A program made the translations under genes and the position numbers. Below are positions 1 through 28,535 of a stretch of 32,506 nucleotides of DNA, piece after piece (within the stretch, counting starts at the first letter, position 1; every line of letters starts with the position of its first letter). The stretch comes from Gammaproteobacteria bacterium (GTDB lineage: Bacteria > Pseudomonadota > Gammaproteobacteria > Pseudomonadales > Azotimanducaceae): contig JAPPAV010000086.1 of the NCBI GenBank assembly GCA_026705345.1, positions 1 to 32,506 of the forward strand. The letters are read 5' to 3'. The notes beneath the pieces were generated by a model. That model saw only the letters and a program-made list of their open reading frames with translations. It ran no database searches and was not told the DNA's origin.

Positions 1-694
1 CTCCCGGGCCGACCCCGCCAAGGACGCCCAGGCCTGGGCGGCTGTCATGAGCTATCCCCACACCCGGGTTTCGGCAACGGGCGACAGCCCCTACTACCCG
101 ACGCCCGAAGACTATGCGGCCCGGGCGTCCTGGACGGCACGGGAGGCTACGGGTTGGGTGCGCTCGGTGGGCGTCGATCCGATCCGAATCCACGAGTCCG
201 CGGACAAGGTCCACTTGGCGGGGGGCTGGACCCGCTACAACGCCAAGGACGAGCCGATCCTCCGCAATCGGGTGACCTACATCCTGACCCGACTCGACGG
301 TTCATGGGGGATCCAGGCGCGTTTCGGGACGGATTCCTTCACCGAGGGGGAAGTGCTGGACTCCTCGGCACCTCTAGGCGTCGTCGCGGCGCACTTGGAG
401 AATTGGTCGTCGGGAGATCTTGACGCCGCAACGGAGCCGCTCCTCTATCCGTTCACAAACGTCGGCGTCGGTCGGGTGGACCGCTACGGGAACGCGTCGG
501 AAGTTGCCGAAAAGCTCCATGTCGAACCGCCGGCAACAGTCGACGACATCGGGTCCGTCTGGGAGGGAAGGGACGGCATCGTTGCCGCTGCGACGTGGCA
601 GAGTGCCCAAGGTTCGGCGTTTCGGTCGGTGTTTCTCGTGGCGAGACGGGAGCCGGGCTGGCGCTTGGCCGCCGCCTCGATCATCGGCCCGTAG
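1..694 (+). CDS. NTF2-like (SnoaL-type) protein, 5' end outside window
   Basis: The reading frame is open to the first base of the window. The residues before the first ATG at 47 (…AWAAVMSYPH) run smoothly into the protein, so the true start probably lies upstream and the gene is partial. Two similar halves are visible. Each has a helix with Trp followed by a YPH or YPF segment (AWAAVMSYPH and LDAATEPLLYPF), then beta-strand-rich sequence such as VTYILTRLDGSWGIQARF. This is the layout of tandem NTF2-like domains, a cone-shaped fold used by small enzymes and binding proteins. No catalytic residues can be assigned and no signal peptide is visible in the part seen. The stop codon TAG (692-694) is the first triplet of a hairpin repeat that fills the gap to the convergent oxidoreductase gene. 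The family call is moderately sure; the function is unknown. Confidence 0.7.
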   Translation, partial: SRADPAKDAQAWAAVMSYPHTRVSATGDSPYYPTPEDYAARASWTAREATGWVRSVGVDPIRIHESADKVHLAGGWTRYNAKDEPILRNRVTYILTRLDGSWGIQARFGTDSFTEGEVLDSSAPLGVVAAHLENWSSGDLDAATEPLLYPFTNVGVGRVDRYGNASEVAEKLHVEPPATVDDIGSVWEGRDGIVAAATWQSAQGSAFRSVFLVARREPGWRLAAASIIGP

Positions 695-785
695 GGGCAA
701 CCCTTGTGGTCGCCTGTCCTAGGGCAGCGCGAGGCGTCAGCCGGTTGCGCGCCCGAAGGGCGCGCCGGGACGGAGTTCGTCGGCA
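692..785 (+). repeat. Modular hairpin repeat, copy 1 (supplies a stop codon)
   Basis: The element starts with the TAG stop of the NTF2-like gene. Hairpin A has arms 696-702 and 708-714 around a CTTGT loop (703-707), with one mismatch. Hairpin C is GCGCGCCC (747-754), GAA, GGGCGCGC (758-765), a perfect 8-bp stem. A degraded hairpin B follows (GGGACGGAGTTCGTC region). The order A-C-B, read away from the stop codon, is the same as in copy 2. The element fills nearly the whole 96-bp gap between two convergent genes, so it could act as a terminator. It lacks a clear T-run. Confidence 0.75.
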
Positions 786-790
786 ACCTG

Positions 791-2059
791 CTAGAACCCG
801 CGCTCGGCGCATTGCCGGTTGATCTCGTCGATGATCTCGCAGACGCGGATCGACTCGGCGGTGGTCCACTGCGGCAATTCCTTCAGACCGGCCGCCATGC
901 ACCGATGCACGGCTTGGGCCTGGTACGTGAAACCGTGCTGATTGCCCCCGTGCCACGTCCAGCCCTTGTAGGTGACAAGCCGTTCGCCGTTCCACCGTGA
1001 GCCCGGCGGCTGGCCACGCGTGATGGGTGCCGGTGTCGGCACGGGGTATTCGAATCGCTCCACCTGGTTGAACGGGCCGCTGCTCGGGTTGCGGTCCTGG
1101 TTCCAGTGCGTCTCGATCCAGTCGCCGGTCCAGCCCTCGTGCGGATCGAGTTCGATGACGGGTTTTCCTTCCTCCCGGCGCGTGCCGCGTCGCGGTGGCC
1201 GTCCGGTGCGGATCGTCACGGCGCTCGGGTGGTGCGACGGCGTTTCGATGGTGATGCGTCCCTTGGTGCCGATGTACTGGGACTCCTCGATGAAGCGACC
1301 GTTGGGGAAGGTGATGACGGCGATGCCTTCCTGGTTGGAATACTGCAGCACGGCAGCGCTCGGGGAGCCGCCGTGGGCGGAGTAGACCCCGTTGGCATGG
1401 GGCTGTGCCCGAGCTTTTCGGCCCGCCGCAGCGATGACGGGCATTTCGTCGGCGCCGAAGCCGGTGATGGCGGGATTCAGGGCGTAGACACGGTCGGGAT
1501 AGTCCGCCTGGACGACCCGGATGTCGCCGATGTCGCCGCGCTCCATCGCGGCTCTTGCGTGTTCGACGGCAGGGAAGAAACGCAGCCACATCCCCTCCCA
1601 GCACACGACGCCGGCCTTGTCGGCGGCCTCGAACGCCTCCTTGGCTTGGTCCGCGGTGTCGGTGAACGGTTTCTCGCAGAGCACGTGCTTGCCGGCGTCA
1701 ATGGCCATCTTGAGGTCCCGGTGGTGGTCCCAGGTCTTGGACGCGATGTAGACGATGTCCACGTCGGGGTCTTCGCAGAGAGCCTGGTAGGAGTCGTAGG
1801 CGGTGGCAATCTCGTGGGCGTCGGCGAATGCCCGGGCGCGGTCCATGTCCCGGGCGGCAATGGCGGCGAACTCCGCTCCGGGCACGTCCTGCAACGATTT
1901 CACCCAGTCGGAGGAGATGGAAGACGCCGAGATGATCCCCCAGCGTAGCTTGTGGTTGATGCCGTCCTCGTTCGTGAGACCCAGCCGAACGTCCATCGGC
2001 GTATTCATGGGGAAGCCGTTGTACATGTAGGGGTCGTCGTTGACGTTGGCTTCGCTCAT
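791..2059 (-). CDS. Gfo/Idh/MocA family NAD(P)-dependent oxidoreductase
   Basis: A 422-residue protein. A Rossmann NAD(P)-binding domain begins at residue 38 (LRWGIISASSIS). The family's EKP motif (residues 129-131, VLCEKPF) carries the lysine normally involved in catalysis. The C-terminal half is the usual alpha/beta substrate domain and includes WEGMWLRFFPA, as in dihydrodiol or glucose-fructose type members. These enzymes oxidise or reduce sugars, inositols or diols in the cytoplasm; the substrate here is unknown. The length is slightly above the usual 330-400 because of about 37 extra N-terminal residues. ATG at 2059 is chosen because GAGG precedes it closely; Met18 and Met22 lack ribosome sites. 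It lies 173 bp downstream of a PhyH gene on the same strand, with a hairpin repeat between them, and it ends tail to tail with the NTF2-like gene. Confidence 0.88.
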   Translation of the reverse strand: MSEANVNDDPYMYNGFPMNTPMDVRLGLTNEDGINHKLRWGIISASSISSDWVKSLQDVPGAEFAAIAARDMDRARAFADAHEIATAYDSYQALCEDPDVDIVYIASKTWDHHRDLKMAIDAGKHVLCEKPFTDTADQAKEAFEAADKAGVVCWEGMWLRFFPAVEHARAAMERGDIGDIRVVQADYPDRVYALNPAITGFGADEMPVIAAAGRKARAQPHANGVYSAHGGSPSAAVLQYSNQEGIAVITFPNGRFIEESQYIGTKGRITIETPSHHPSAVTIRTGRPPRRGTRREEGKPVIELDPHEGWTGDWIETHWNQDRNPSSGPFNQVERFEYPVPTPAPITRGQPPGSRWNGERLVTYKGWTWHGGNQHGFTYQAQAVHRCMAAGLKELPQWTTAESIRVCEIIDEINRQCAERGF

Positions 2060-2127
2060 GGATCCTCGCGCTCTGTTGGTCGAACTCGTTACCGTAGCGC
2101 AAATTTAGACGTGCGGGGACGCCGTAG

Positions 2128-2235
2128 GGGACGGGCTTGTCCCGTCCCGACGCGCCCTTGCGGGCGCGTTCGAGAATGCTGCGTGACCGACCGAAGCCGC
2201 GCGCTCTTCGCGGGCGACGACAAGCGTCGCCCCTA
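2128..2235 (-). repeat. Modular hairpin repeat, copy 2 (supplies a stop codon)
   Basis: Read on the minus strand from the TAG stop of the upstream PhyH gene (2235-2233). Hairpin A has perfect 8-bp arms at 2225-2232 and 2212-2219 around a CTTGT loop. Hairpin C has 7-bp arms at 2162-2168 and 2151-2157. Hairpin B has perfect 8-bp arms at 2141-2148 and 2128-2135 around CTTGT (plus-strand reading). This is the most complete copy, with all three modules intact. It occupies most of the gap between the PhyH and Gfo/Idh genes. Confidence 0.85.
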
Positions 2236-3093
2236 CGAGACCGATTTCAACAGTGGGTTGCGCAGTTTCTCTTGTTGCTCGTAGATGCTGCCGCCCGGGA
2301 CCCGGGGCAGGCTCAAGCGTACGGGCAGCGCCTTCATCCGAGGCTCCAGGGTCGGCTTGCCGCGCACGATTCGGCCATCGAGGTCCTCCAGGGAATCCGC
2401 GCCGGGTATGAGCGGCCAGGCGTCGGTCGCATAGAAGCCTATGAAGAACATCCGCCGCGGGCGGTTGGATTGATTGGGCTTGGATCCATGCACCATCCGA
2501 ACGTGATGCAGCGTGATGCCACCAGCCTTGACCGTGACCGATACGGCATCGTCGGGCCGGAATGCCGGGTCCGTGATCGCACCGACGAAGAGTCCGTCCT
2601 GGTGATGGTTCCAGACCCGGCCCCGGTGGCTGCCGGGAATCACCATCAGCGCCCCGTTGTGCTGGGTCATGTCGTCCAGCGCAATGCCGACTTCGAGGAT
2701 GCTGTCGTTCGTGTGCGGGTAGAACGCCCAGTCTTGGTGCCATTGCACGGCCGAACCGTTGTCGGGGTTCTTCATGTTCAGCTTGTTGTTGTGATAGCGC
2801 AGATTGGGCCCTAAGAGGCATTCCACGATGTCCAGGATGGGGCCGTGGCTCGCGTACTTGGCGTAGGTCGGGTGCTTGCTGACGGGGTGCTTTATGCGCC
2901 GCAGACTGGGCGACGCCGCGCTGTGTTCGGGCTCAAGGTCGAAGATGGCGTCGTTGGTGGTGACTTTCCGGGACTTCTCGACGAACTTGTCCGTCAAGCG
3001 CCGTAGTTCCTCCAACTCGCCCAGGGTCAGCACGTTCTCGATGGCGAGGTAGCCATTCCGGTCGTAGGTTTCGACTTGGGCCGCGTTGAGCAT
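2233..3093 (-). CDS. Phytanoyl-CoA dioxygenase (PhyH) family protein
   Basis: A 286-residue non-heme Fe(II)/2-oxoglutarate oxygenase. The iron-binding HxD motif is H119-Q-D121 (in WHQDW). The distal histidine is H202 (VHGS), followed by an Arg-rich stretch (211-214) that would bind 2-oxoglutarate. Family members hydroxylate unactivated carbons of small molecules or acyl chains in the cytoplasm; the substrate here is unknown. The frame is open 20 codons further upstream, but ATG at 3093 is chosen because the family's N-terminal 'Y..NGYL' region begins just after it and the extension would overlap the previous gene. It is 25 bp downstream of the small hypothetical gene, in the same minus-strand run. 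Its TAG stop belongs to hairpin repeat copy 2, so the last residues may have been altered by insertion of that repeat. Confidence 0.87.
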   Translation of the reverse strand: MLNAAQVETYDRNGYLAIENVLTLGELEELRRLTDKFVEKSRKVTTNDAIFDLEPEHSAASPSLRRIKHPVSKHPTYAKYASHGPILDIVECLLGPNLRYHNNKLNMKNPDNGSAVQWHQDWAFYPHTNDSILEVGIALDDMTQHNGALMVIPGSHRGRVWNHHQDGLFVGAITDPAFRPDDAVSVTVKAGGITLHHVRMVHGSKPNQSNRPRRMFFIGFYATDAWPLIPGADSLEDLDGRIVRGKPTLEPRMKALPVRLSLPRVPGGSIYEQQEKLRNPLLKSVS

Positions 3094-3118
3094 GGAGTGT
3101 CCCGGCTGGGATGGCCGG

Positions 3119-3532
3119 TTAGCTGGCTGCCTGCGCGCTCGGTACCTGCGCACTCGCCGTCCGGAACGCTTCGACTACGCGTTCGGTTGCAGGGCGCCAG
3201 TCGTCTGGCAGGTGGGATCCGGCCCGAGACCGGGTCAGGTAGTCGGGAAACCGTTCAACAAGCTCGTCCAACGCCCACTCGAACGCCTTGGGCGAGTCGA
3301 TCATCTGGACGGGCTCATCCAGGTAGGAGATACCCAGGTGAACGTGCGGCACGTTGTCGAAACAGTCGAAGCGCAGGATTTCTCGGTCCTCGCCTTCTAC
3401 CGGACCAAAGACGTGGATCGTCGGCCCCTGGTCGCCGGTGACGTGCCGGTACACCATCGCCAGGCGATAGGGACCCACCTGCTCTTGGACCGCATCGGCG
3501 AGATCCGGTTGGGTGAAGCGTCTCTTTGCCAT
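3119..3532 (-). CDS. Conserved hypothetical protein, 137 aa
   Basis: A small soluble protein without signal peptide or membrane segment. It begins MAKRRFTQPDL. Its middle has strand-like segments with several Asp and His residues (IHVFGPV, LRFDCFDNVPHVHLG) and its C-terminal half is helical (FEWALDELVERF). I do not recognise the family with confidence. The composition looks like a real coding sequence, and a strong ribosome site (GGAGGT, 5 bases before the ATG) supports the start at 3532. It lies between the family-5 binding protein (57 bp upstream) and a PhyH gene (25 bp downstream) on the same strand, so it is probably co-transcribed with them. The cluster of D, H and C residues could bind a metal; that is a guess. 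Confidence 0.7.
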   Translation of the reverse strand: MAKRRFTQPDLADAVQEQVGPYRLAMVYRHVTGDQGPTIHVFGPVEGEDREILRFDCFDNVPHVHLGISYLDEPVQMIDSPKAFEWALDELVERFPDYLTRSRAGSHLPDDWRPATERVVEAFRTASAQVPSAQAAS

Positions 3533-3589
3533 CGCACACCTCCGTCGAGAGTTGATGATACGCCGAGTGACCGTATGACGGTTCGGGCG

Positions 3590-5455
3590 TTATTCGCGCT
3601 CGAGCGCCCCATGGCCGACCTTGTCCGGGTCGATCCACCAGCTGTCAAGAATGCGCACCGAACTGCCGACCAGGTACTCGTACTTGGCGACCGCCTCGTG
3701 CTTGGGCCTTGCGAACCTGTCCCAGCGCACGAACCGTTCTTCGTCGGGGATGTTCAACGGTATGTGATAGAACCCCCATAGCAACACGCGATCCAGCGCC
3801 CGGCAGGCAGTCATTGCCTCTTCCAGCGACCCCACGATCCGCTCCGCCCGGTCGATGAGCGCGTCGACGACCGGGTTGCGCAGCCCCGCCATGTTTCCTC
3901 CGAGTTCGAGGTCCGCGGTTGTCGAACCGAAATAGCTCTGCAGTTCCCCCAACGGGGGATTCAAAAAGTCGTGCCCGCGGACATAGGCATCGAAATCGCG
4001 TTTTCTCAAGCTGTTCACCCACGCCACGTTGTCGAGCAGTCGCAGACGGGCATCGACGCCGAGGGTTTTGAGGGACTCGATGTAGGGCAAGAGGATCCGC
4101 CGCTGGGAGGGATTCTGCGTCGTCAACTCCAGCTCGAAGGGCTGCCCCGCGGCGTTGACCAGGCGTCCGTCCTGCATGGTCCATCCGGCTTCATCGAGCA
4201 GGTCTCGTGCTCTCTCAAGTGCCGAGCGGTTCAATCCGGTGGCGCTCGAGACCGGCAGGCGAAATGCCTCGGTGAACACCCGTTCAGGCAGGCGATCCCG
4301 GTAGGGGGCAAGCACGGCCAGTTCAGCCTGCGTGGGAGGTCCCGTTGCGGCAAACGGCGAGTTGGCGAAGTAGCTCGTGGCGCGCGTCTGTGAACCGTAC
4401 TGAAAAACGCGGTTCTGCCATTCGAAATCCAACGCCAGGGTCAGTGCTTCGCGAACACGGACGTCCCGCAGTCTTTGGCGATCGAGATTCAGGACGATTC
4501 CCGTCGCGAGGCCGATGAACTTCCGCACTGATCGCGTTTCCATGATTAGCGATCCCGCTGCCAGCGCCGGTATGTCGTACGACGACGCCCAATGCCGAAT
4601 GTCGGTTTCGAAATAGATGTCGAACAACCCTTTGCGAATCGCCTCCCTGGCAACCGTCGCGTCGCGATAGACGTCGTAGCGGATGGCATCGAAATTGTAT
4701 CGACCGCGGTTGACCGGGATATCCCGTCCCCAATAGTCCTCGACGCGCTCGTAGCGGACATAGTCGGCGTCGAAGTCGGCAACGCGATAGGGGCCACTGC
4801 CCACCGGCGGCACCAGCGTCGGAGCACTCGAGTCCTTGCCGGCGTAGTAGTGCGCCGGTCGGATGGGGAACCAGGTCAGCGCCACCAGGTTCGAATTGAC
4901 GAACGACCGCCGGTGGTGGATGACCAGCTCCTTGGCATTGACGATCTCCAGCGCTTCGATCCATGACTGGAGATAGACTTTCCCGAAGGCACGCTTCAAC
5001 AGTTCGTCGTAGGAAAACCTCACATCCGCCGTCGTCACCGGCACGCCATCGTGCCACCGCGCCTTGTCGTTGAGCCGGATGAAAAGCGATCGCCGGTCGG
5101 CGGCGAGCGCAATGCCGTCGGCAAGCTGGCCGTAGAGGCCGGACAGTTCATCCGCCGAGCGGATCATCAGCCGGTCGACGGTTCTCCCCAAACCCTGTGC
5201 GCCGGGTACGCCGGTTCCCGGCACGCCGGCGAAATTCCGGATCGGGTTGGTTGCCGAGAGTCTCAGTTCGCCGCCTTTCGGTGCGTCGGGATCGGCGTAT
5301 TCGAAGTGTTCGAAATCGGCGGGATACTTCAGTTCATGCAAGAGCGAAATGCCGTGCCGATAGGCTGGCTGTTCTGCCATGGTTGCGAGCGCCTGCAGCA
5401 GAATCACGCCCGGCAGGTAACGCTTGACCCGCGAAGGCCACGTCAGGAGGGCCAT
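3590..5455 (-). CDS. ABC transporter substrate-binding protein, family 5 (YejA-like)
   Basis: A 621-residue periplasmic binding protein of the peptide/nickel/oligopeptide class. The N-terminus has a basic segment (RVKRY) and a hydrophobic core (LPGVILLQALA), consistent with export. The family-5 pattern is clear: HGISLLHELKYP and PDAPKGGELRLS near the N-terminus, then LNDKARWHDGVPVTTADVRF, GSGPYRV, and DVRVREALTLALDFEW in the middle. The PDAPKGG start and the length match the YejA/microcin C type. It shares GRDIPVNRGRYNF and VYRDATV with the binding protein at 24988-26823, so the two are paralogues. No permease or ATPase subunits are in the window. It begins 13 bp after the PhyH stop at 5469, in the same run as the sulfatase. 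It probably captures a peptide-like or other small polar solute for import. Confidence 0.9.
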   Translation of the reverse strand: MALLTWPSRVKRYLPGVILLQALATMAEQPAYRHGISLLHELKYPADFEHFEYADPDAPKGGELRLSATNPIRNFAGVPGTGVPGAQGLGRTVDRLMIRSADELSGLYGQLADGIALAADRRSLFIRLNDKARWHDGVPVTTADVRFSYDELLKRAFGKVYLQSWIEALEIVNAKELVIHHRRSFVNSNLVALTWFPIRPAHYYAGKDSSAPTLVPPVGSGPYRVADFDADYVRYERVEDYWGRDIPVNRGRYNFDAIRYDVYRDATVAREAIRKGLFDIYFETDIRHWASSYDIPALAAGSLIMETRSVRKFIGLATGIVLNLDRQRLRDVRVREALTLALDFEWQNRVFQYGSQTRATSYFANSPFAATGPPTQAELAVLAPYRDRLPERVFTEAFRLPVSSATGLNRSALERARDLLDEAGWTMQDGRLVNAAGQPFELELTTQNPSQRRILLPYIESLKTLGVDARLRLLDNVAWVNSLRKRDFDAYVRGHDFLNPPLGELQSYFGSTTADLELGGNMAGLRNPVVDALIDRAERIVGSLEEAMTACRALDRVLLWGFYHIPLNIPDEERFVRWDRFARPKHEAVAKYEYLVGSSVRILDSWWIDPDKVGHGALERE

Positions 5456-5468
5456 AGCACTGCGCTTG

Positions 5469-6383
5469 CTAGTTGAAACGCATCACCACTGAGCGGTTGC
5501 CGGAGGCCTGATCGGCGATGGCATGGTGGTAGGGGACCGGCTCTGCGATGGCGTGCGTCGCCCCGGCTGGATTCGAACCGTATCTCTCGGGAATGACCGT
5601 GCCCTTCCGGGCGAGCCTCGCGGCCAAGGTGATTCTCCCGGACCGGATGTCGGCGTTCCTTCGGAGTTCCGGGTTCGGGGTGCCGAAGTAGCCGGGGCGC
5701 CAGTCCTCCTCCCGGTGTCCGTATGCCAGGCTGCGGTGCAGCAGCGAGGAATGGAACACTGCGAACTGACCCTTCTTTAGCGTCAGTGGGGTGATCCTGT
5801 CATGGACGACCTCCGGCATTTCGTCGAACAGGCGCGGCATCTCCCTGTCGAACCCGTCGATAGGCAGATGCGATCCCTTTATGTACTCGATCCGGCCGTG
5901 TTCCACGCCCAGATCGGACAATGCCACCACGAAGGAGAAATGATTGCTGGTGTCGTAGACCCGGATCGGATCATCGCCGTTTTCGACGATGCGATCATGG
6001 TGCCACCGGTTCTCTCCGACGCCCTCGTACTTCGGAAAGAACTTGGTCTGCCAGAGCACGAGGTCCTTGCCGAAACAGTCGGCTACCACGGACTGCAGGT
6101 TGGCGTCGAGGAAGAGTTCTCCAATCACGCTGAACGCCATGTGTCGGTTGATCAAGGTGGTATGCCGGAGCTGGTCTCCTTGTCCCGCTAGCGTTGCCAG
6201 CGAGTTCTGCGCCCGTTGCAGTGCCTGCAGTCCGATGGCCACCTCGGACACCGCGTCGAGTATCGACGGGTCAGCCAACTCGAACGGTCCGGTAAGGCCA
6301 TCCCGCTGCAATTGGGCGAGGAAGCGGTCCATCTCCGTTGGCGTATCGCGGCTTTTTTCCATAGAAATCTCGGCGTTCGGCAT
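5469..6383 (-). CDS. Phytanoyl-CoA dioxygenase (PhyH) family protein
   Basis: A 304-residue Fe(II)/2-oxoglutarate oxygenase. The iron motif is H128-H-D130 (in RWHHD). The likely distal histidine is H216 (SSLLHRS). FYxKY-type sequence before the HxD (WQTKFFPKYEG) and a GRIEYIKGSH strand after it fit the PhyH double-stranded beta-helix. It is clearly different in sequence from the other four PhyH proteins in the window. It starts 8 bp after the stop of the sulfatase at 6392-8005 and ends 13 bp before the binding-protein gene, so sulfatase, oxygenase and binding protein look like one operon. ATG at 6383 is taken; Met8 and Met18 are possible internal starts. The substrate is unknown; the sulfatase neighbour suggests a sulfated small molecule or its desulfated product. 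Confidence 0.87.
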   Translation of the reverse strand: MPNAEISMEKSRDTPTEMDRFLAQLQRDGLTGPFELADPSILDAVSEVAIGLQALQRAQNSLATLAGQGDQLRHTTLINRHMAFSVIGELFLDANLQSVVADCFGKDLVLWQTKFFPKYEGVGENRWHHDRIVENGDDPIRVYDTSNHFSFVVALSDLGVEHGRIEYIKGSHLPIDGFDREMPRLFDEMPEVVHDRITPLTLKKGQFAVFHSSLLHRSLAYGHREEDWRPGYFGTPNPELRRNADIRSGRITLAARLARKGTVIPERYGSNPAGATHAIAEPVPYHHAIADQASGNRSVVMRFN

Positions 6384-6391
6384 GTGGCTGA

Positions 6392-8005: not shown

Positions 8006-8057
8006 GGGCGCGGCCCTCCTTACCCGCGACGCTTAGACGGTGTCGTAGTGAACGGGG

Positions 8058-8498
8058 TTAGCTAGGCGGTACAGCCTTGTCCGACGGTCGCGCATCCGCC
8101 TCGACGGCGCTGAGCCGGGCGTCGAAACCCACCATCGCCGCGCGGATCGCTGCGACGTCGACCTCCACGGAGCGGAGGCGATCGTCGAGGCCGGCGATGT
8201 CCGAAGAAAGCTCTGTGCGGACCTTGTCGATGTCGTTGCCGAGGTCCCGATGGACTTCGTCGATGTCGTTGCGCAGGTCCCGATGGACTTCGTCGATGTC
8301 GTTGCCGAGGTCCCGGCGAACCACCTCGATGCTGCCCGCGAGGCTCGAATGTGCCGTCTGCACCATCGTGCCCAGCGTCAACGCCGCAGTCACGATGGTT
8401 GTCAACACGGCAAGGGTCCTCCCGTCTAGCCACGCGGGTAGGGCCAACCGGGTTCCTTCGGTCGGTTCGTTGGTGGGGGTGCCTTCTCCCATGGTCAT
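8058..8498 (-). CDS. Small membrane-anchored coiled-coil protein with 11-residue repeats
   Basis: A 146-residue protein. A short polar N-terminus is followed by one hydrophobic segment (about residues 27-47, LAVLTTIVTAALTLGTMVQ) and then a long helical region (57-133). Three near-identical 11-residue units (DLGNDIDEVHR and variants, residues 63-95) followed by diverged ones fit a hendecad coiled coil. The DNA is repeated as well, in 33-bp units. It resembles the anonymous single-TM coiled-coil proteins common beside unrelated genes; no function can be assigned. The start is ATG at 8498; Met3 is an alternative. It sits 52 bp upstream of the sulfatase start, on the same strand, and 209 bp downstream of the TonB receptor gene. 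Confidence 0.65.
   Translation of the reverse strand: MTMGEGTPTNEPTEGTRLALPAWLDGRTLAVLTTIVTAALTLGTMVQTAHSSLAGSIEVVRRDLGNDIDEVHRDLRNDIDEVHRDLGNDIDKVRTELSSDIAGLDDRLRSVEVDVAAIRAAMVGFDARLSAVEADARPSDKAVPPS
8214..8312 (-). repeat. Tandem 33-bp repeat inside a coding region
   Basis: Three 33-bp units encode 11 residues each. The two units at 8247-8279 and 8280-8312 are nearly identical; the third (8214-8246) is more diverged. They encode consecutive turns of the coiled coil in the 146-residue membrane protein. The unit length keeps the frame, so copy number could vary without breaking the gene. Confidence 0.75.
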
Positions 8499-8657
8499 TG
8501 CGCTACTACCGAGTCTGAGGAGTGCGAGATGGTGCCGTGCCCCACAACGCCCGTATGCCGGACATTAACACTACGGTGGGTAGGAAATCTCTCACGCCCG
8601 GCTAGGGGCTGGCTGGTTCGGATCCCGCGGTAAGCGTTTGGTTCCGTTGGGTTGCGT

Positions 8658-8697
8658 TTCCCTGGTGACGGCTCGCGAAGAGCGCATCACCAGGGAA
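8658..8697 (-). terminator. Hairpin just after the TonB receptor gene, likely terminator
   Basis: A perfect 11-bp inverted repeat (TTCCCTGGTGA at 8658-8668 and its complement at 8687-8697) encloses a smaller stem (GCTC 8671-8674 with GAGC 8680-8683). It begins 10 bp after the stop codon of the receptor gene. There is no T-run on either side, so it may be a Rho-linked stop or an mRNA 3'-end stabiliser rather than a classic intrinsic terminator. Confidence 0.5.
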
Positions 8698-8707
8698 GTA
8701 CATCGGC

Positions 8708-11515: not shown

Positions 11516-11690
11516 TCTTTTCCCCTTCTTAAGCCTTACTTCCCATGGGTGGATTCCGGTGTTCCCGGCTCGGCCTGTACGGCAGGCGAATCTCCCAAGT
11601 ACAACCCACGTAGATTACACGGTTTCGCTCGCCCGCGTTTGCCCCTCGGGGCCAGATTGGGGCCAGATGGGCGTTGTTGCGCGGCGGACC

Positions 11691-15976: not shown

Positions 15977-15977
15977 C

Positions 15978-18280: not shown

Positions 18281-18362
18281 CCGACCGATACTAACGCGGC
18301 CTACGAGGGCTGTCGTGAGCGGTTGGCACGTAGTGGCCGCGCAACTTGGGGAACGACCGAGG

Positions 18363-19757: not shown

Positions 19758-19768
19758 GACTCGGATCG

Positions 19769-20857
19769 TCAGAGCGTGATGTCGCGCTGCCAGTACTCGT
19801 CGCCGTCCCGGCGAATCTCCGCACGCGTCGCCTTGTTCCACGACCCGTCGCCGATGTAGCTCCCTCGATAATCGAAGGGCTTCTCGTCGGGGCGATGCTG
19901 GCGCCGGGCGTCGATCGCGAGCGGGATCATGCGAGCCCGTCGAAGCACATAGTCCTCGGTGTAGGTGATTTCCTTGGTGTCTGTGCCCGGTTGCTTGAAG
20001 GCGTGCACGTTCGTTGTCGTCGCACCGATCGCCGAACGGCGTTGGTGGAAGCCGAGCACCATCGTAACCCGCCGTTCGGCGGACTTGTTGGGGTACGAGC
20101 CGTGCAAAGCGCTGCGGTTGACGATGCCGCAATCGCCGGGTTCGAGGAGCATGGGCACGGCGTCGGCCAACCGTTCCGTGATGGGCGGAAATTTCCCGCC
20201 TCCCGCCAATCGCCAACGTCGGTGGCTTCCGGGCACCACCCAAAGGCAGTTTTCCGCTGTGCAGTTGGACCAGGACACGCTCATGTTGTAGCCATGGCAT
20301 TTGCCGCTGCCGTCCGGTTGCTCCAAGGCGTCCCCGTCCTCGGTCCAATGCGTGCGCCCGTCCTGATGCCAGCGGGTGGGAAACCCGTTGCCGGGCGCCT
20401 TGTAGAAGATGCCTTCGTGGAACGGCACGAAATCCGCTCCGTAGAGGCTCTCCGCGATGGCGAGGATCTTGGGGTGCGCGTAGACCCTCAAAGTCGATTC
20501 CATGTAGATGAACGGGTGCGACAGCAGCGACACCCGGGCCGGTGCGTCCGGGTCGTCTTCGTCCTCGACCATCGTGAAGTAGCCGCCGAACGGCGATGGT
20601 CGACCGTAGCGGTCGGTGTCGCCGTTCGATTCAGTCGGGACGTTGTCGAGTATTTCGTCGAACTCCGTCGTCAAGTCGCGGATTTCGTCCTCGTCCAGCA
20701 CCCCGGTGAAGACGTAGAAGCCGTTCTGGCGGTACGCATCGAGAATGTCCTGTACGAGGTGTCCGTCGCCGTCAAGGCGGACCGGCCCCCTGTTGCCGAG
20801 GGCGAGAGCGCGCTCGACAGCCGCTTCGGCGTAGGCGTCCCAGGTTGGTTCGGTCAT
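19769..20857 (-). CDS. Phytanoyl-CoA dioxygenase (PhyH) family protein, long form
   Basis: A 362-residue Fe(II)/2-oxoglutarate oxygenase, the longest of the five here. The iron motif is H164-Q-D166 (RWHQDG), the distal histidine H252 (LHGSYPN), and R262/R263 are candidate 2-oxoglutarate residues. An NGFYVFTGVL start of the fold lies at 45-54. The N-terminal 30 residues and the insert after the HxD (HWTEDGDALEQPDG) are extra relative to smaller members. ATG at 20857 is chosen; the frame upstream is hairpin repeat and terminator sequence. It is convergent with the sulfatase (11-bp gap) and downstream of the broken TonB receptor gene. Confidence 0.88.
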   Translation of the reverse strand: MTEPTWDAYAEAAVERALALGNRGPVRLDGDGHLVQDILDAYRQNGFYVFTGVLDEDEIRDLTTEFDEILDNVPTESNGDTDRYGRPSPFGGYFTMVEDEDDPDAPARVSLLSHPFIYMESTLRVYAHPKILAIAESLYGADFVPFHEGIFYKAPGNGFPTRWHQDGRTHWTEDGDALEQPDGSGKCHGYNMSVSWSNCTAENCLWVVPGSHRRWRLAGGGKFPPITERLADAVPMLLEPGDCGIVNRSALHGSYPNKSAERRVTMVLGFHQRRSAIGATTTNVHAFKQPGTDTKEITYTEDYVLRRARMIPLAIDARRQHRPDEKPFDYRGSYIGDGSWNKATRAEIRRDGDEYWQRDITL

Positions 20858-20870
20858 AGTCGACGGCTCC

Positions 20871-20888
20871 AAAAACGCCTTCGGGCGT
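20871..20888 (-). terminator. Short intrinsic-terminator-like hairpin
   Basis: On the minus strand ACGCC, a CGAA loop and GGCGT (20888-20875) are followed directly by four more Ts. It lies between the TonB receptor gene and the PhyH ATG at 20857. The stem is only five pairs, so it may be weak. It would end transcripts of the receptor and separate it from the PhyH gene. Confidence 0.5.
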
Positions 20889-20897
20889 ATGCCGTTG

Positions 20898-20975
20898 GGG
20901 ACGGGCTTGTCCCGTCCCGTCTTAGACGGCGCCGGGCGACCGCGCACCCTAACGGGGGCGTTAGGGTCGCCCCTA
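20898..20975 (-). repeat. Modular hairpin repeat, copy 3 (nested hairpin, supplies a stop codon)
   Basis: On the minus strand it starts with the TAG stop (20975-20973) of the TonB receptor gene. The two 8-base arms of hairpin A (20965-20972 and 20934-20941) are intact, but the loop holds a second hairpin whose arms are CCCTAACG (20947-20954) and its complement (20959-20966). Hairpin B follows with perfect arms at 20911-20918 and 20898-20905 around CTTGT. Hairpin C is missing or reduced to GGCGCC. Confidence 0.8.
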
Positions 20976-23584
20976 CGGGCGCCACCGCACTTGGAGGCCG
21001 ATTCGCCGCGGGTCGGTCAAGGTGCCCATATGAGGCACGCTGCTGTTCGTCGACCGCTGCAGAAATTCGACCAAGCCAATCTTGTCGAGTGCGTTTTGAA
21101 CAAAGAGCGTTGCCGAGAGATCCCCATCGGGCGAGGTCCACGTACCCCTCAGGTCCAAACGGCCGTAGGCCTCCAGATCAGCCATCGGCGAGTTGTTCAA
21201 GTCCGCGTGCCGGTCGCCGGTCCAACTGTAGGTTGACAGCAGCAGCAAGTCGCCGCCGATGTCGAGCGGTCTCGAATACGCCGCCGTCACCGCGAACTTG
21301 TGCTTCGGCTGCATGGGCAGCGCGTTCCCGGTCATGTCCGTCGGCAGGACATAGGCGCTGAGCCGGGGTTCGCCGGTCTCGAAATCGCGGTGCTCCCAGA
21401 CGCCGTAGGTCGGATTCGGATCGCCCCGGACAACCTCCGCATGCTCGCCGATCTCCGAACCCAGCCAGGCGTAGTAGCCGGACAAGCGCCAGTTCTCGTT
21501 GGCTTGGAAGATGAACTCGGCCTCGGCACCCCAGATCTTCGTCTCCTCGATGTTGTCAGTGAACTCGATAAGCGGAGACTCCGCTGTTGGTGGGATTATC
21601 GGATTGGGATTCTCCTTGGTGCCGTTGATCTGATAGTCCGAATAGTCGTTGTAGAACGCCGCCGCCGTGAGTTGAAGCCGCCGGTCCAGGTACAGGCCCT
21701 TCAGGCCGACTTCGTAGTTGACGAGGGTCTCTTCCTTGATCGGGTCGGTGGGCGCACCCGGGGAAAACGTGTTGAACCCGCCTGCCCGGTACCCCGTGGA
21801 CAGCCGACCGTAGAACAGCTGGTCCGGCGCCGGCGCGTATTCCAGACTGACATGGCCGATGGTCTTTCCCCAGGTCCGCTTCTTCAGGTCCGAATCGTCG
21901 AAATACAGGATCAACGGGACACCGCCGATCGGAAAGATGATCCAGCCGCCGTCGAAGAGCTGTTCCTTCTCATCCTCCGTGTAGCGCAGACCGCCGGACA
22001 CCTGCCATTGTTCGTTGACTTGGTACTCGGCATTGACGAAAGCTGCGTTCGTCGTCGATCCACCGTTGGTCGAGAAAAGAAAGAGGTGCGTGTGGTCGTT
22101 TCCTTCGGGACAATCCCAGCCTTGGGCGACATCGCGTCCGCCCCGGGATACGCCGATGCCGAATCCCTCGATGACATTGGTCAGTACATCCTGGCAATTC
22201 GATACCGGTACGAAACCGAAAATCGGTGATGCCGCGACGGCGGCCTCATCGGCGCTCTGGAAGCGGAACGAACTCGCGTAGTTCCATACGGGCACGCTCC
22301 AGGTGGTGTGGTTGTTGTAGCGGAAGACCCCGGCGATGAAGTTCAAGTCGCCGTCAAGCTCGGATACGAGCTGCAGCTCGTGGGACTCTTCGGTGTAGTC
22401 GTAGGTGACACCAAGGACCACGTCCTCGAAAGGAACCCCGGCATCGGCGGAGAGAAGCGGGTCGGCTGGGCTACCGACCCGGTTCGTGAAGTCGTTGTCG
22501 CGGGTCACCTGTTGGAAGTTGTCGGTACTTCCGTAGTTGTAGCGTAGCGAGAACGAGTCGGTGAGTTGGTAGTCGGCGCTTAACGTCCGTTGATCACCCT
22601 CGCTGCCCGATATGCCGGGACGGTTGACGTGCAGCTTGTTGGAGATGTCGCCGCACTCGAAACCTGGCCTTCCGGGCGGACAATCGTCGGGTACCGAGGG
22701 TAGGGGTTCCGTGTATAGATACCAGAAATTGTCTTCGCATTCGGGTTCCTCGTCGAGGGACAGGGGATCCACGATGCACTCCGACGTGCGGTCACGCTCC
22801 GAGAGCGGCACCTGCATCCGGGGAGACCCGTCGTCGTTGACCAGCGCGATCCTTACGTTCACATCCAGACGATCGGTCTTGTAGCGCAATTGCGGGGTGA
22901 AGGTCGTCTGGTCCGGGGCCGCGTAGTCGCCACCGGCACCGCTGTTCTTCTGGCGCCGTCGCCGGTGTAGAAACCGCCGTTGATGCGGAAGCTCAGGTTG
23001 CCGGCGAGCGGTCCACCGAAAGCCACGTTGTAGCGTTGGGTCGTCTGGTCGGTGAATTCCACCTGGAACAGCGAGTCCCACTCGTCGGTGGGCCGCTTGG
23101 TGAAGTAGCTGATCGAACCGGCGATCGAGTTGCGCCCATTCAGCGTGCCTTGGGGACCACGCGCCACCTCGATCCGTTCGACGTCGAACAGGTTTGGCGC
23201 GACGCCGTAGGTGCCGATGGTGTAGACGCCGTCGACATAGGTTGCGACGGCCAGGTCCGAGTGGGTCTCCCCCGCGAGGCGCGAGCCGATGCCGCGGATG
23301 ACGGTCCCCTGGCCAACCTGCTCGCCGTTGTCGCCGAACTGCAGACCCGGAACAAGCTGCTCGATGTCGTTCGGGTTGGTCATGCCGAGCTCTTCGATCA
23401 TCTGCTCGCTGAACGCGGACATGGTGAGCGGCACGTCGAGCAGCCGTTCCTCCCGCTTTTCCGCTGTGACGATAATCTCCTCGATGGGCCTGCTTTCGCT
23501 TGCTCCAGGGTCTTGGTCAGCAGCCAGTGCGGGTACTCCGGCTAGCACGAAGGGCAGGGGGCACAAGCGAGTCTTGGCAGCCAT
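20973..23584 (-). pseudogene. TonB-dependent outer-membrane receptor, broken by a one-base frameshift
   Basis: The gene is split between two frames. 23584 to about 22951 gives the signal peptide (cleavage near residue 21), a TonB-box-like EEIIVTA (35-41) and a plug domain (DIEQLVPGLQ, IRGIGS, VDGVY, ERIEVARGPQGTLNGRNS). From about 22949 to 20973 a second frame gives the beta-barrel (LRYTEDEKEQ, YRAGGFNTFSPG, NYEVGLKG). One missing base near 22950 explains the break; with it restored the protein would be 870 residues, normal for this class. It resembles receptors of the sphingomonad/FyuA-like type used for siderophore or carbohydrate uptake. A good ribosome site (GAGGT) precedes ATG 23584. The stop codon TAG belongs to hairpin repeat copy 3, and the final residue is Pro instead of the usual aromatic residue. 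It may be a real pseudogene or a sequencing error. Confidence 0.85.
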
Positions 23585-23720
23585 AGGTTTACCTCACTGG
23601 GAATGGCGGAAGCGAGCAAACCAGCGTACTCCCCGGTGGGCGGACTGTCCAACGAGGTGGCTCTCCGCTGCTCCGACTCCTCCGTGGCCTGACCAAACTA
23701 CGGGTGATCGTAGTCTAGTC

Positions 23721-23748
23721 TTGACCAAGTTACGATAGACACGATAAT
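23721..23748 (+). promoter_or_regulatory. Sigma-70-like promoter of the ATPase gene
   Basis: TTGACC (23721-23726) and GATAAT (23743-23748) are separated by 16 bases. This is the best-looking promoter in the window. The start codon at 23757 lies only 8 bases after the -10 box, so the transcript would begin at or within a few bases of the ATG. No ribosome site is visible, which fits a leaderless message. A related GACCAA…TACG motif lies about 30 bases upstream and might be an operator half. Confidence 0.5.
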
Positions 23749-23756
23749 GGTCAGCC

Positions 23757-24959
23757 ATGGCAACGCCCCGCGTCTACGACAATCTCTTGGCTTGGCATCT
23801 CGCGAGCGACCGCCAGATGGCGTTCATCAGCGGTCCGCGCCAGGTCGGCAAGACCACCGTCGGCCGGCGGGGCACGGACGCCTACATCAACTGGGATGAT
23901 GCCGACGATCGCCAGCTCGTACTCGACGGTCCCCGACGCGTTGCGGAGACCCTGAAACTCGACCGTCTGGCCGCTGCGCCGCCGACCGTGCTGTTCGACG
24001 AACTTCACAAGTACCCGCGCTGGAAGCAGTTCCTGAAAGGCTTCTTCGACACCTACGGTGCCCGTGTGCGCATAGCCGTCACCGGCAGCAGCCGACTCGA
24101 CGTCTACCGGCGCGGCGGAGACAGTCTGATGGGCCGCTACTTTGCGTATCGCATGCATCCGTTTTCGGTGGCGGAAGTCGCCAACGAGACCCTGCCGCCG
24201 GACCGCGTGCTGCGCGATCCGACGCCACTTGCCGAGGAGGACTTCGACGCCCTGTGGCGTTTCGGCGGCTTCCCGGAGCCCTATCTGCGGCGCGACGTGC
24301 GCTTCGAACGGCGCTGGCGGTCCCTACGTTTGCGTCAACTCGTTCGCGAGGACGTCCGCGACCTGACGCAGATCCAGCACCTCGACCAGCTCGATGCGAT
24401 GGTGCGGCTCTTGGTCGAGCAATCGGGAACGCAACTCGTCCTCAAGAACGTCGCGAACCATGCTCGAGTCGCCGTGGATACCGTGCGTCGCTGGGTGGCT
24501 ACGCTTAGCGACCTGCATCTGGGCTTCATCGTCCGTCCGTGGTTCCGCAACGTGTCGCGGTCCCTGCGCAAGGAACCGAAGTGGTACGTACGGGATTGGG
24601 CCGCAGTGTCCGATCCCGGCAGACGGGCGGAGACGTTCGTGGCCGCCCACCTGCTAAAGGCGGTGGAGGGCTGGACCGATTTGGGCCTCGGTGACTTCGA
24701 ACTCGGCTATCTGCGAGACAAGCAGAAGCGCGAAGTGGACTTCGTCGTGGTCCGCGACGGGGAGCCGTGGTTCCTTGTCGAAACGAAAGCGGACGATGCG
24801 CCGGCTAGCCCGGCCTTGGCGTACTTCCAGCGGCAACTTGACGCGCCGTTCGCCTTCCAGGTGACCATCCGCCAAGCCTACGTGCCGCGGAACTGCTTCG
24901 ATTCCCCGGGGCCGCCGCTTGTCGTCCCGGCGCGCACGTTCCTGTCGCAGTTGTTCTGA
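23757..24959 (+). CDS. AAA-type ATPase with DUF4143 nuclease-like C-terminus
   Basis: A 400-residue protein of the AAA_14/DUF4143 type. Walker A is GPRQVGKTT (26-34) and Walker B TVLFDE (77-82), followed by the sensor-like VTGSSRLD (108-115). A winged-helix-like segment is likely around 225-255 (LVLKNVANHARVAVDTVRRW). The C-terminal part has a PD-(D/E)xK-like pattern: D328 in REVDFVV and E342-x-K344 in LVETK. Proteins of this family are widespread and often mobile or sporadic; their cellular role is not settled. It is a single gene, divergent from the TonB receptor and convergent with the binding protein (28 bp apart). It appears to have its own promoter and possibly a leaderless start. Confidence 0.88.
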   Translation: MATPRVYDNLLAWHLASDRQMAFISGPRQVGKTTVGRRGTDAYINWDDADDRQLVLDGPRRVAETLKLDRLAAAPPTVLFDELHKYPRWKQFLKGFFDTYGARVRIAVTGSSRLDVYRRGGDSLMGRYFAYRMHPFSVAEVANETLPPDRVLRDPTPLAEEDFDALWRFGGFPEPYLRRDVRFERRWRSLRLRQLVREDVRDLTQIQHLDQLDAMVRLLVEQSGTQLVLKNVANHARVAVDTVRRWVATLSDLHLGFIVRPWFRNVSRSLRKEPKWYVRDWAAVSDPGRRAETFVAAHLLKAVEGWTDLGLGDFELGYLRDKQKREVDFVVVRDGEPWFLVETKADDAPASPALAYFQRQLDAPFAFQVTIRQAYVPRNCFDSPGPPLVVPARTFLSQLF

Positions 24960-24987
24960 TCCTGTCCCGGTGCCGGTGGGCATGCTC

Positions 24988-26823
24988 CTACCGGTTCAAG
25001 ATCCGCGCCGCCTTGGCGTCGTCGTACCACCACCCATCGGGAAATGCCGGCCAGTACTTCGCCTCGAAGTCCGGAATGCCGAACTTGTCCCAGTGGACCG
25101 TGCGACGCAAGTCCACCGCGTACAGCGGGATCTGGTAGTACTGCCAGAGCAGCACCCGGTCGATGGCCCGGCAGGCGGCGGTCATCTCCTCGAGGGTCGT
25201 GGCCAGATTGGCCTGGGTGATCAGGTAGTCCAACACTGGATGGCCGATGCCGGCGACGTTGCGCGACACCGGGTCCTTTGCGGCTTCGGAGTGGTACGTG
25301 GCCTCGAGTTCGATGACCGGCGGCATGAGTATGTCCTGGTTCTGGAGGACGGCGTCGAAGTCGAAGTCGCGTCGCAGGTTGATGTACTGGCTGCTTTCGA
25401 CCAGCCGAATCGTCGCGGCGATGCCAAGTCGTTTCAGATCCTGCAGATAGGGAAGCAGGATGCGGGAGTCCGCCACGTTCTGCGACAGGAACTCGATCGT
25501 AAACGGCTCGCCGGCCGCATCGGTGAGAACACCGTCGACGGCCCGCCAGCCCGCTTCGGAAAGCAACTGCCGGGCACGGACGAGGTTCTCGCGGTGATCG
25601 TCCACCGAGGTCGTCTCCGGGAAGCGGAACGGCCGGTCGAAGAGTTCGCTCGGCAGTTGATCGCGAAATCGTTCCAACAACGCGAGTTCGGCGTCGCTCG
25701 GCAGGCCCGTCGCAGCCAGGATCGTGTCCGGCCAGAAGCTATGGGCGCGCTTGTGATGACCCATGTGCAACGTCCGGTTCTGCCAATCGAAGTCCATCGC
25801 GAGCGTAAGCGCTTCGCGGACGCGTCGGTCGTTGAACTTCGCCCGGCGATTGTTGAGGGCGATGTTGCTCCGCACGCCGACTTCGATGCCGAAATGGCGG
25901 CGGATCTTCTTGACCCAGCCCTTGGCGAAAGCCGGCGTGTCGAAGGAATCGTGCCAGTAGCGAATGTCCGTTTCCGTCCAAATGTCGATCAGACCCTTGC
26001 GGAAGCTCTCGCGGATTACGGTGGCATCGCGGTACACGTCGAAGCGAACCTTCGCGAAGTTGTACCGGCCCCGGTTGACGGGAATATCGCGGCCCCAGTA
26101 GTCGGGATCGCGTTCGTACTCGATGAAACGTCCCTGCTTGATGGCCGAGACCCGGTAGGGCCCGCTGGTCAGCGGCGGGTCAAGCGTGCTCGCCGACGGA
26201 TCCCGGTCGCGCCAGTAGTGCTCGGGCAGGATCGAGGTGAACTGAACCATGATGACGTTGTTCAAGGTGATCGGGGAATGCAGGTGGACCACGACGTGCC
26301 GGTCGTCCAGGACTTCGACGTCGCCGATGAAGCTGTAATACATGCGGCCTTCGATCTGGTTCCGGAGGCTATTCAGGGTGTACGCCACGTCGCTGGCCGT
26401 GACGGGAACGCCGTCGCGCCACCGTGCATCGGCGTGGATTCTGAATGCCATGAACATTCCGTCGTCGGCGACGGCGATGCCGTCCGCGAGGCGACCGTAG
26501 AAGGCGCTGACCTCGTCGCCGGCGCGGAGCAGGAGGGTGTCGGAAGTGAACCAGAAACCATCCGGGGCACTGATGCCGCGCGTGGCCATGGGTGCCAGGT
26601 TGTTGAATGCGCTTTGGGTCGCAAGGACCAGTTCGCCGCCCTTGGGCGCGTCGGGATTCAGGTAGTCGAGATGCGTGAAACCCGCCGGGTACTTGAGGTC
26701 CTGGAAGAAGGCGATGCCGTGCTTGAACTCGAGATCGTCGAGTATGACGGCGTGCGCCGCGTTCGACGCAACAGCCAGAACGAGGGCAACCGAGGTTTTC
26801 CCTAGATCAGCCAACGCCATCAT
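24988..26823 (-). CDS. ABC transporter substrate-binding protein, family 5 (YejA-like)
   Basis: A 611-residue periplasmic binding protein. It has a signal peptide ending AHA (residues 23-25). HGIAFFQDLKYP and NPDAPKGGELVLA are the same N-terminal landmarks as in the paralogue at 3590-5455. SGPYRV, GRDIPVNRGRYNF and RRVREALTLAMDFDW follow. The length matches the YejA/microcin C group. No permease or ATPase gene is nearby, so it must use a transporter encoded elsewhere. ATG at 26823 or the adjacent ATG at 26820 could be the start. It is divergent from the helicase and convergent with the ATPase. The substrate is unknown; peptides or other small polar compounds are typical. Confidence 0.9.
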   Translation of the reverse strand: MMALADLGKTSVALVLAVASNAAHAVILDDLEFKHGIAFFQDLKYPAGFTHLDYLNPDAPKGGELVLATQSAFNNLAPMATRGISAPDGFWFTSDTLLLRAGDEVSAFYGRLADGIAVADDGMFMAFRIHADARWRDGVPVTASDVAYTLNSLRNQIEGRMYYSFIGDVEVLDDRHVVVHLHSPITLNNVIMVQFTSILPEHYWRDRDPSASTLDPPLTSGPYRVSAIKQGRFIEYERDPDYWGRDIPVNRGRYNFAKVRFDVYRDATVIRESFRKGLIDIWTETDIRYWHDSFDTPAFAKGWVKKIRRHFGIEVGVRSNIALNNRRAKFNDRRVREALTLAMDFDWQNRTLHMGHHKRAHSFWPDTILAATGLPSDAELALLERFRDQLPSELFDRPFRFPETTSVDDHRENLVRARQLLSEAGWRAVDGVLTDAAGEPFTIEFLSQNVADSRILLPYLQDLKRLGIAATIRLVESSQYINLRRDFDFDAVLQNQDILMPPVIELEATYHSEAAKDPVSRNVAGIGHPVLDYLITQANLATTLEEMTAACRAIDRVLLWQYYQIPLYAVDLRRTVHWDKFGIPDFEAKYWPAFPDGWWYDDAKAARILNR

Positions 26824-27021
26824 TGACCGTTCCCATCGAGCCGATCAGGGGTCGTAAAGGTCGAAGACCCATGGTGTCCGGCAATCTGTCATAATGCGGC
26901 CACGCGCTCGACGCGCACGCGATGATCATCGCGCTTGGGTTTCTCCCGCAGCAGTTGGCCAGCCGGCCTTCCCTGCACTACTACTCCGCGCTGAATCACC
27001 TGTGTTACCTCTTTTTTGGAC

Positions 27022-27027
27022 AAGGAG
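27022..27027 (+). promoter_or_regulatory. Strong ribosome binding site fixing the helicase start
   Basis: AAGGAG lies 11 bases before ATG 27039. It decides against the earlier in-frame start at 26922, which has no ribosome site. A T-rich run (CTTTTTT) immediately precedes it. A possible -10 box (CATAAT at 26890-26895) would give a leader of roughly 140 bases. Confidence 0.6.
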
Positions 27028-27038
27028 TCCAATTCCGC

Positions 27039-28408
27039 ATGTCTTTAGAATCCCTCTCGACGAGGCGCGATCGCCAACGCGCGACCGCTCGTCCGACCAG
27101 CCGTGGCCGCCGCCACGAAGTCACGTGCGCCGCGTGCGACACGTTGACGACCGTTCCCTTTCGCCCGGTCGCAGGCCGGCCAGTCTACTGCCGTCCTTGC
27201 TTCCGTAACCAGCGCCGTCCGGCCCGGGGCGCCACTGACCGGCAGAACCTGTCGCCGAGGGTGGCTGACTTTCCTGAAGCGTTGGCCTGCGCGAGCGACG
27301 CGTTCCCGGACATGGTTCTTTGTGACGCGACCCGGAGCGCGATCGCCGGCATGGACATTTCCGAGCCGACGGCCATCCAGGAACAATCGATTCCCCATCT
27401 TCTTGCCGGACGGGATTTGATGGGCCAAGCCCGCACCGGATCGGGCAAGACGCTCGCGTTCGCCGTTCCCCTGGTCGAACGCTGCGATCCGTCGCTTCGA
27501 CGCGTCCAGGCACTGGTGCTGGTGCCGACCCGGGAACTGGCCATCCAGGTGGCTTCCGTCGCCGACGCCTTGGCCGTGACGAACGGCCTTCGTGTCCAGT
27601 CGTTGTACGGTGGCCGGTCCCTCCGGCCCGAACAAACGGCATTGAACGCGGTCCCCAGGTTGTCGTCGGGACGCCGGGGCGCACCCTCGACCACCTGCGA
27701 CAAGGCAACCTCGACCTCGGTGCCGTACGGTTCCTCGTTCTCGACGAGGCCGACGAAATGCTCGACAAGGGCTTTGCCCGCGATGTCGAGGCAATCCTCG
27801 ATCGTACTCCCAGCGAGCGACAGACCGCGCTGTTTTCCGCGACGATGCCGAAGTGGGTGGCGAACACGGCGAAAAAGCATTTGCGCAAACCCGAGAGGGT
27901 TGAGATCGTCGGCGGCGTACAGGCGCCGCCCACCGTCGACCACCTGGTCTACACCATCGACAAGGCCGACAAGATTCAAGCGCTTCAGACGCTATTGGAC
28001 GCGGGTGATGGATCGATCATCGTCTTCGGCAGGACCAAGCACGGGGTGCGAAAGCTGGCTCGACAACTCGACTCTCTCGGCTACCGGGTCGGCGCGCTGC
28101 AGGGCAACCTCAAGCAGAACGCGCGCGAGCGCGTGCTCGCGAACTTCCGATCCGGTGCGGCCCCGGTCCTGGTCGCCACCAACGTGGCGGCCCGCGGTCT
28201 CGACATCGAGGGCGTGGACCAGGTGGTCAACTACGATCTGCCGGACTCGCAGCAACTGTTCACGCATCGTGTCGGACGCACCGGCCGGATGGGTCGTAGC
28301 GGCGAGGCGATAACGTTCGTGACCCCCGACGAGGTGCGCAAATGGCGCCAGATCGAGCGAGGTTTGGGACACCGCGTCACGCGCGAACCGTGGCGAGCCG
28401 CCTCGTAG
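27039..28408 (+). pseudogene. DEAD-box RNA helicase with N-terminal zinc ribbon, one-base frameshift
   Basis: An ATP-dependent RNA helicase in two frames. The first part has a zinc ribbon (C30, C33, C51, C54), the Q motif (EPTAIQ, 109-114), motif I (ARTGSGKT, 131-138) and motif Ia (PTRELA, 163-168). The second frame continues with VVVGTPGR (Ib), DEAD (II), SAT (III), IIVFGRTK (IV), ATNVAARGLDI (V) and HRVGRTGRMGR (VI). Adding one G at 27644/27645 joins them through ALERGPQVVVGTPGR and gives 456 residues, normal for the family. All motifs are intact, so the break is either very recent or a sequencing error. The role is RNA remodelling, in ribosome assembly or cold adaptation. The TAG stop is the first triplet of hairpin repeat copy 4. 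Confidence 0.88.
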
Positions 28409-28535
28409 GGGCGACCCTTGCGGTCGCCCGCGAGTGGCCGATAGATCGTAGGGGCGACGCTTGTCGTCGCCCGCGCCTAGCGCGCGGCCTCGTAGGAAGA
28501 CCCCAAACGCGCCCGGAGGGCGCGCGGTCGCCCGC
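28406..28535 (+). repeat. Modular hairpin repeat, copy 4 (two A hairpins, supplies a stop codon)
   Basis: It starts with the TAG stop of the helicase (28406-28408). The first hairpin A has perfect 8-bp arms at 28409-28416 and 28422-28429 with loop CTTGC. A second TAG plus hairpin A follows at 28449-28472, with perfect arms and loop CTTGT. Hairpin C has perfect 7-bp arms at 28508-28514 and 28518-28524. A further TCGTAGG fragment lies near 28490. The element fills the gap to the convergent HAD gene. Confidence 0.85.

Follow-up and report, generated by a model that had tools for sequence, protein, structure and literature searches.

How do four genes on one bacterial contig come to share the sequence that ends them? 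The stretch analysed here, the window, is one entire contig of 32,506 nt (JAPPAV010000086.1, assembly GCA_026705345.1) from the 5.07 Mb genome of a gammaproteobacterium of the Azotimanducaceae, and four of its coding frames end in the TAG of a GTAG followed directly by a hairpin, at 692, 2235 (minus strand), 20975 (minus) and 28406, all confirmed in the sequence (Table 1). A preliminary description had held that chance can hardly give this, and that the repeat either inserts at gene ends, replacing the original stop, or is a dedicated 3'-end module. The hairpin repeat is a repetitive extragenic palindrome (REP) of the GTAG type, and in the reading that we consider highly probable this REP, often arranged as a REPIN-like pair of two classes, A and B, is spread by a REP-associated tyrosine transposase (RAYT) and captures stop codons, copies through which a gene reads being mostly removed by selection.

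Stop codons supplied by the repeat

Both classes carry the GTAG tetranucleotide, their head, immediately 5' of the palindrome: class A, GTAGGGGCGAC-loop-GTCGCCC, has 150 exact-pattern copies in the genome and class B, GTAGGGGACGGG-loop-CCCGTCCC, has 243, while the reversed A and B patterns have 0 copies there. In a general hairpin search a stem of at least 7 follows 155/3772 GTAG tetranucleotides (4.1%), compared with 1.3-2.4% for seven other tetranucleotides, and 76 of these 155 carry the class A or B stem. The relation to genes was scored in stretches around some 100 of the 150 class A copies (about 458 kb including the window), which hold 103 class A and 69 class B heads, with genes called by a codon-pair model trained on those same stretches; the sample is centred on class A copies, and the class B count is therefore no random sample of B. 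The copies are mainly extragenic, only 11/103 class A lying inside gene calls, about seven of them through probable start miscalls, and they commonly form inverted doublets, as 45 of the 103 are paired, within 200 bp, with a class B copy whose head points outward, two have a class A partner and 56 have no exact-head partner (median head-to-head distance 75 bp). The base before GTAG is C in 99/103 class A copies and the next one out a pyrimidine in 91/103, an excess that hints at a cleavage preference.

The link between repeat and stop codon seen at the four genes extends beyond the window, for 25/103 class A and 13/69 class B copies supply the stop of a gene, and it is partial, 78 of the 103 class A copies having no such role. 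Within the window four of the five exact class A heads serve as stops, the exception being at 28448; the copy at 20976 (minus) belongs to the same class in a longer hairpin variant. At 64 of the 103 class A heads the nearest head-side gene points toward the head (one of these, at C46:1230, begins immediately upstream of the head and extends across it), and 25 of these genes end exactly on the TAG, whereas 13 have their stop 5-30 nt short of the head, a density of roughly one per two bases, the closest at 5 nt (2), 10 nt (1) and 17 nt (3). No gene starting more than 60 nt upstream passes a class A head in either of the other two frames (0/103). That all 25 interruptions fall in the TAG frame has p ~1e-12 if the three frames are equally likely, an arithmetical figure which does not separate insertion preference from selection. 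In the A/B pairs on C5 and C45 each end gives its stop to one of two convergent genes, and at the loci of relatives 4/25 class A copies are stops (two of 27 loci were dropped, their upstream sequence being short).

The common orientation at the four genes, which the preliminary description had also stressed, is real but carries no weight. Read head-first, the class A consensus has TAG in one frame and leaves the other two open, and in the tail-first direction all three frames are open; the class B consensus has the identical stop pattern in both orientations. Every copy that supplies a stop must therefore be head-first. With captured stops excluded, 39 gene 3' ends (including C46:1230) face the head and 67 the tail.

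Related genomes show what these genes look like when the repeat is missing. Syntenic loci were located by six DNA queries, three window pieces (1-28900) and three stretches of about 20 kb each from elsewhere in the genome, and were analysed in part, giving 408 called genes in 10 genomes, of which 227 end in TGA, 46 in TAA, 108 in TAG without and 27 in TAG with an exact REP head. Thirteen orthologue groups contain a REP stop and 10 of them include a member ending in TAA or TGA. REP ends and non-GTAG ends lie a median of two codons apart in 38 comparisons, which are not mutually independent, with extremes of -12 and +22 codons, the latter against a much shorter gene call. One gene, for example, ends VEL-TAG followed by the REP in three species and VELPS-TAA in a fourth. 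The comparison of C-termini with repeat-free homologues thus favours the first of the two explanations offered earlier: in 31/38 comparisons the repeat-free relative ends within four codons of the REP stop, frequently with TAA or TGA, and the most likely history is therefore that the repeat took the place of an older stop.

The GTAG itself is shared more widely than the hairpin. Among the 45 members of these 13 groups without an exact head, 20 end in GTAG, 11 in TAA, eight in another TAG and six in TGA, as against GTAG ends in 29/312 genes of the 69 groups without a REP stop; likewise, G precedes 53/108 non-REP TAG stops and 57/273 TGA or TAA stops. By eye, a degenerate or variant REP can be recognised behind about 17 of those 53 GTAG stops that lack an exact head, and a strict test finds a stem of at least 6 right after the stop in seven, where 2.6 are expected. 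At the TonB receptor gene one and the same codon is followed by a short class A, a long class A or a class B REP, depending on the species. Since 20 of the 45 members keep GTAG, such stops may mark past insertions and be readable traces of them.

Mechanism and rival explanations

The genome has five matches to PF01797, four above the cut-off. The one at C29 is a 215-residue Y1 protein with NF047646 (REP-associated tyrosine transposase) as its best NCBIfam match, and the only solved chain found for it up to E 1 is 4er8, TnpArep, a match that is not significant (E 0.082). Its gene adjoins an array in which six class A copies alternate with class B copies, and the class A copy closest to it provides the TAG at which the gene itself stops; a relative in genome G004, 74% identical, likewise ends CCG-TAG of a class A REP. 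The nearest named record is from the metagenome-assembled genome Gammaproteobacteria bacterium SB0670_bin_10 (74% identity; records of the present genome were possibly excluded from that comparison). The other Y1 matches lie at C132:37532-37717, C121:190-372, C10:11-136 and C123:11-124; those on C132 and C121 resemble a second, distinct type, the C132 protein scoring 42.8 bits to NF047646. It is the GTAG before a palindrome, the high copy number and the companion Y1 transposase that lead us to assign the repeat to the GTAG REP/RAYT systems, as these are characterised in the available text of PMC2817692 and PMC3733652.

On the preferred reading a GTAG REP, or an A/B pair with GTAG at both outer ends, would be spread by its own, presumed, RAYT-like Y1 transposase. 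Where a copy lands at the final codons of a gene, head upstream and GTAG in phase, its TAG would become the stop of that gene, a few codons away from the earlier one, and copies landing in other frames or tail-first would leave the gene to read through the repeat, an outcome that is rare, most simply through selection. Only a GTAG in phase would interrupt a frame and immediately terminate it. The captured stop would be held by selection, and the hairpin could decay or be exchanged. It is possible, if rather doubtful, that this amounts to a one-way ratchet, in which selection keeps the GTAG as sole stop after the hairpin has decayed and later REPs overwrite it by recombination or RAYT cleavage, so that gene ends serve as landing pads for the turnover of REP classes and TAG usage and C-termini are reshaped across the genus.

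Several observations weigh against this reading, among them genes that do read through the repeat. A first count, limited to 60 nt and to complete genes, gave head-first read-through in 0/103 class A and 1/69 class B copies, and tail-first spanning in 4/103 and 0/69. A second count without these limits places 10/103 class A copies inside tail-first gene calls. Six of the ten have 3-25 codons before the repeat and a low coding score (0.08-0.09 per codon in the five scorable) and are probable start miscalls; the other four look real or possibly real (C10:39992, C29:24830, C47:81095 and C71:85347). At C47:81095 a 1014-nt gene call runs tail-first into the class A copy and takes from it the C-terminus GDHKGRPYG before its stop, and a tail-first copy can therefore also remake a gene end. 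At C71:85270-85347 a REPIN-like pair of class B and class A lies within one 1545-nt gene call with a good coding score on both sides, and appears to be translated. Head-first read-through is seen at C46:1230 (class A, four codons before it; a probable start miscall) and at C71:85270 (class B). Class B heads are also read tail-first at C34:14842 and C99:6271, each 12 codons past the called start, and at C69:23816, where no REP hairpin follows the head and the sequence has the appearance of ordinary coding DNA.

The transposase and the insertion sites add to these difficulties. The RAYT-like protein scores under the curated cut-off of NF047646 (73.3 vs 80 bits), and in a survey of 15 same-genus relatives, 13 genomes of other genera and the present genome, the class A pattern is present in 10/15 same-genus relatives (and 0/13 of the others), although a search of 28 genomes, the present one counted, finds this RAYT in just two at E 1e-20. 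In G005 and G009 there are 117 and 119 class A pattern copies, with no match to this RAYT at E 1e-20. A flank-joined search for empty sites, comparing 85 two-flank sites with the other same-genus genomes, gave no clean empty site: outside genes nearly all flank alignments are, by eye, gapped or covering other REPs, so that the target sequence is unreadable, and at some intergenic positions a relative has no GTAG in alignments too weak to count. Intergenic sequence is turned over too much between species for empty-site mapping, and for this reason neither the precise boundary nor which way the change went is proven at individual sites. Part of the GTAG ends in REP-free orthologues could also go back to a native stop of the ancestor.

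That last point bears on a rival in which GTAG, or the TAG, is native and required by the transposase, the element landing 3' of the host's own TAG stop. A precedent for such a requirement is IS608, which requires a TTAC target. Relatives lacking an exact head do often have YCG-TAG as their end, at the corresponding codon or close to it (PhyH in G011 and G001, the NTF2-like gene in G011 and G009), but we think this rival unlikely, given the relatives ending in TAA or TGA in 10 of 13 groups, the degenerate or variant REPs behind REP-free GTAG stops, and the available text of PMC8266576, where GTAG belongs to the REP and guides cleavage at CT or CA sites. Slightly less probable still is a dedicated 3'-end module, the second explanation of the preliminary description, in which the hairpin is kept because it terminates transcription, protects the mRNA or controls translation. 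Compared with shuffled sequences, the stems of three out of five copies fold better (z -2.24, -2.68 and -4.08; the others -1.00 and -1.89), and captured stops place the hairpin directly after the stop, within the 15 nt at which E. coli REPs are reported to lower translation (work cited in PMC12306157, as given there). Whatever influence it may have on the mRNA here is conjectural. A hairpin under selection, however, should persist, and at captured stops it is the hairpin that decays or differs between species and the GTAG that stays; moreover, 78/103 class A copies are not gene ends, and a terminator scan of window positions 20700-28700 gave five sites against 6.0 expected, none of them a REP hairpin. 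The REPs in those positions lack the T run that follows the GC-rich hairpin of an intrinsic terminator.

A common intergenic repeat might also coincide with gene ends by mere chance, as GTAG REPs elsewhere are known to lie near gene 3' ends (PMC3733652, in the text available), but the probability of this explanation is negligible: 25 copies sit at one exact offset, against 13 across 5-30 nt before the head, and head-first read-through near a gene end is missing. Replacement of old stops by a mobile GTAG REP is the reading that we retain.

Other features of the window

Of the gene labels first given from the letters alone, PhyH, TonB receptor barrel and helicase C-terminal domain are upheld by Pfam, whereas NTF2-like has one sub-threshold match (DUF6841, E 0.021, 15.8 bits vs a cut-off of 27). 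Rfam gives nothing in the window at gathering thresholds.

Table 1. Repeat copies and associated genes in the window
Feature	Coordinates	Strand	Remarks
Class A GTAG REP	691..715	+	TAG 692-694 is the stop of open reading frame (ORF) 47-694
Gene ending in REP, NTF2-like by sub-threshold match only	47..694	+	terminates CCG-TAG-GGGCAAC
Class A REP	2212..2236	-	TAG 2235-2233 is the stop of the PhyH gene
PhyH dioxygenase gene	2233..3093	-	PF05721, E 2e-38; terminates TCG-TAG-GGGCGAC
Class B REP, outward-headed partner of 2212-2236	2124..2148	+	REPIN-like pair, 112 bp head to head
Long class A REP variant	20934..20976	-	TAG 20975-20973 is the stop of the TonB receptor gene
TonB-dependent receptor gene	20973..22889	-	PF00593, E 3.4e-39; start uncertain, ORF extends to 23081; terminates CCG-TAG-GGGCGAC
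Class B REP, degenerate head (GTTG), outward-facing partner of 20934-20976	20894..20918	+	by eye
Class A REP	28405..28429	+	TAG 28406-28408 is the stop of the helicase C-terminal ORF
C-terminal part (PF00271) of DEAD-box helicase gene, frameshifted in appearance	27758..28408	+	terminates TCG-TAG-GGGCGAC
Class A REP, no stop codon role	28448..28472	+	
Degenerate long class A REP (GTAGGAAGAC...GGTCGCCC)	28492..28533	+	by eye

The helicase gene is apparently split by a frameshift, with its DEAD part in 26922-28313 and its end and C-terminal domain in another frame (27758-28408), which may be a sequencing error of the draft assembly; in G003, G004 and G011 the genes called are 1098 nt long, which suggests longer versions in those genomes. 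Elsewhere in the window, ORF 8058-8498 (minus) holds three direct copies of a 33-bp unit at 8219-8331, an 11-residue repeat if this ORF is a gene, and ORFs 3590-5455 and 24988-26823 (minus) share stretches in the same order with 73-74% DNA identity and have the appearance of paralogues.

Relation to known REP systems

The supply of stops by GTAG REPs is already published, and the present case is a new example from another bacterial genus. The persistence of the GTAG stop while its hairpin decays or differs between species is possibly new: a limited literature search on stop supply by REPs or miniature inverted-repeat transposable elements found no report of GTAG stops outlasting the hairpin. 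A mobile repeat of this kind edits gene ends: it determines both where a host gene stops and which residues come last in its protein.

The following likenesses are drawn to the cited papers as far as their available text goes. In the RAYT/TnpA-REP REPtrons (Nunvar et al. 2010, PMC2817692; NAR 2021, PMC8266576) a Y1 transposase gene is flanked by GTAG REPs, as it is here, and REPs very near or directly after the rayt stop have been described; the RAYT of the present genome differs in being predicted, its best family match falling just below the curated cut-off. Published cleavage sites are CT or CA (PMC8266576), yet class A copies mostly have C directly before GTAG. REPINs (Bertels and Rainey 2011, PMC3116915) are inverted REP doublets with a spacer, like the pairs found here, in which, however, the two ends mostly belong to different REP classes (A and B). 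In the GTAG REP superfamily (Di Nocera et al. 2013, PMC3733652) GTAG likewise stands at one end of a short palindrome of high copy number, mostly 3' of ORFs, and the termini often provide a TAG stop ("opal" there) to flanking ORFs. We liken our repeat to this superfamily by its described features rather than by its family lists, and add to it a comparison of the stops across orthologues.

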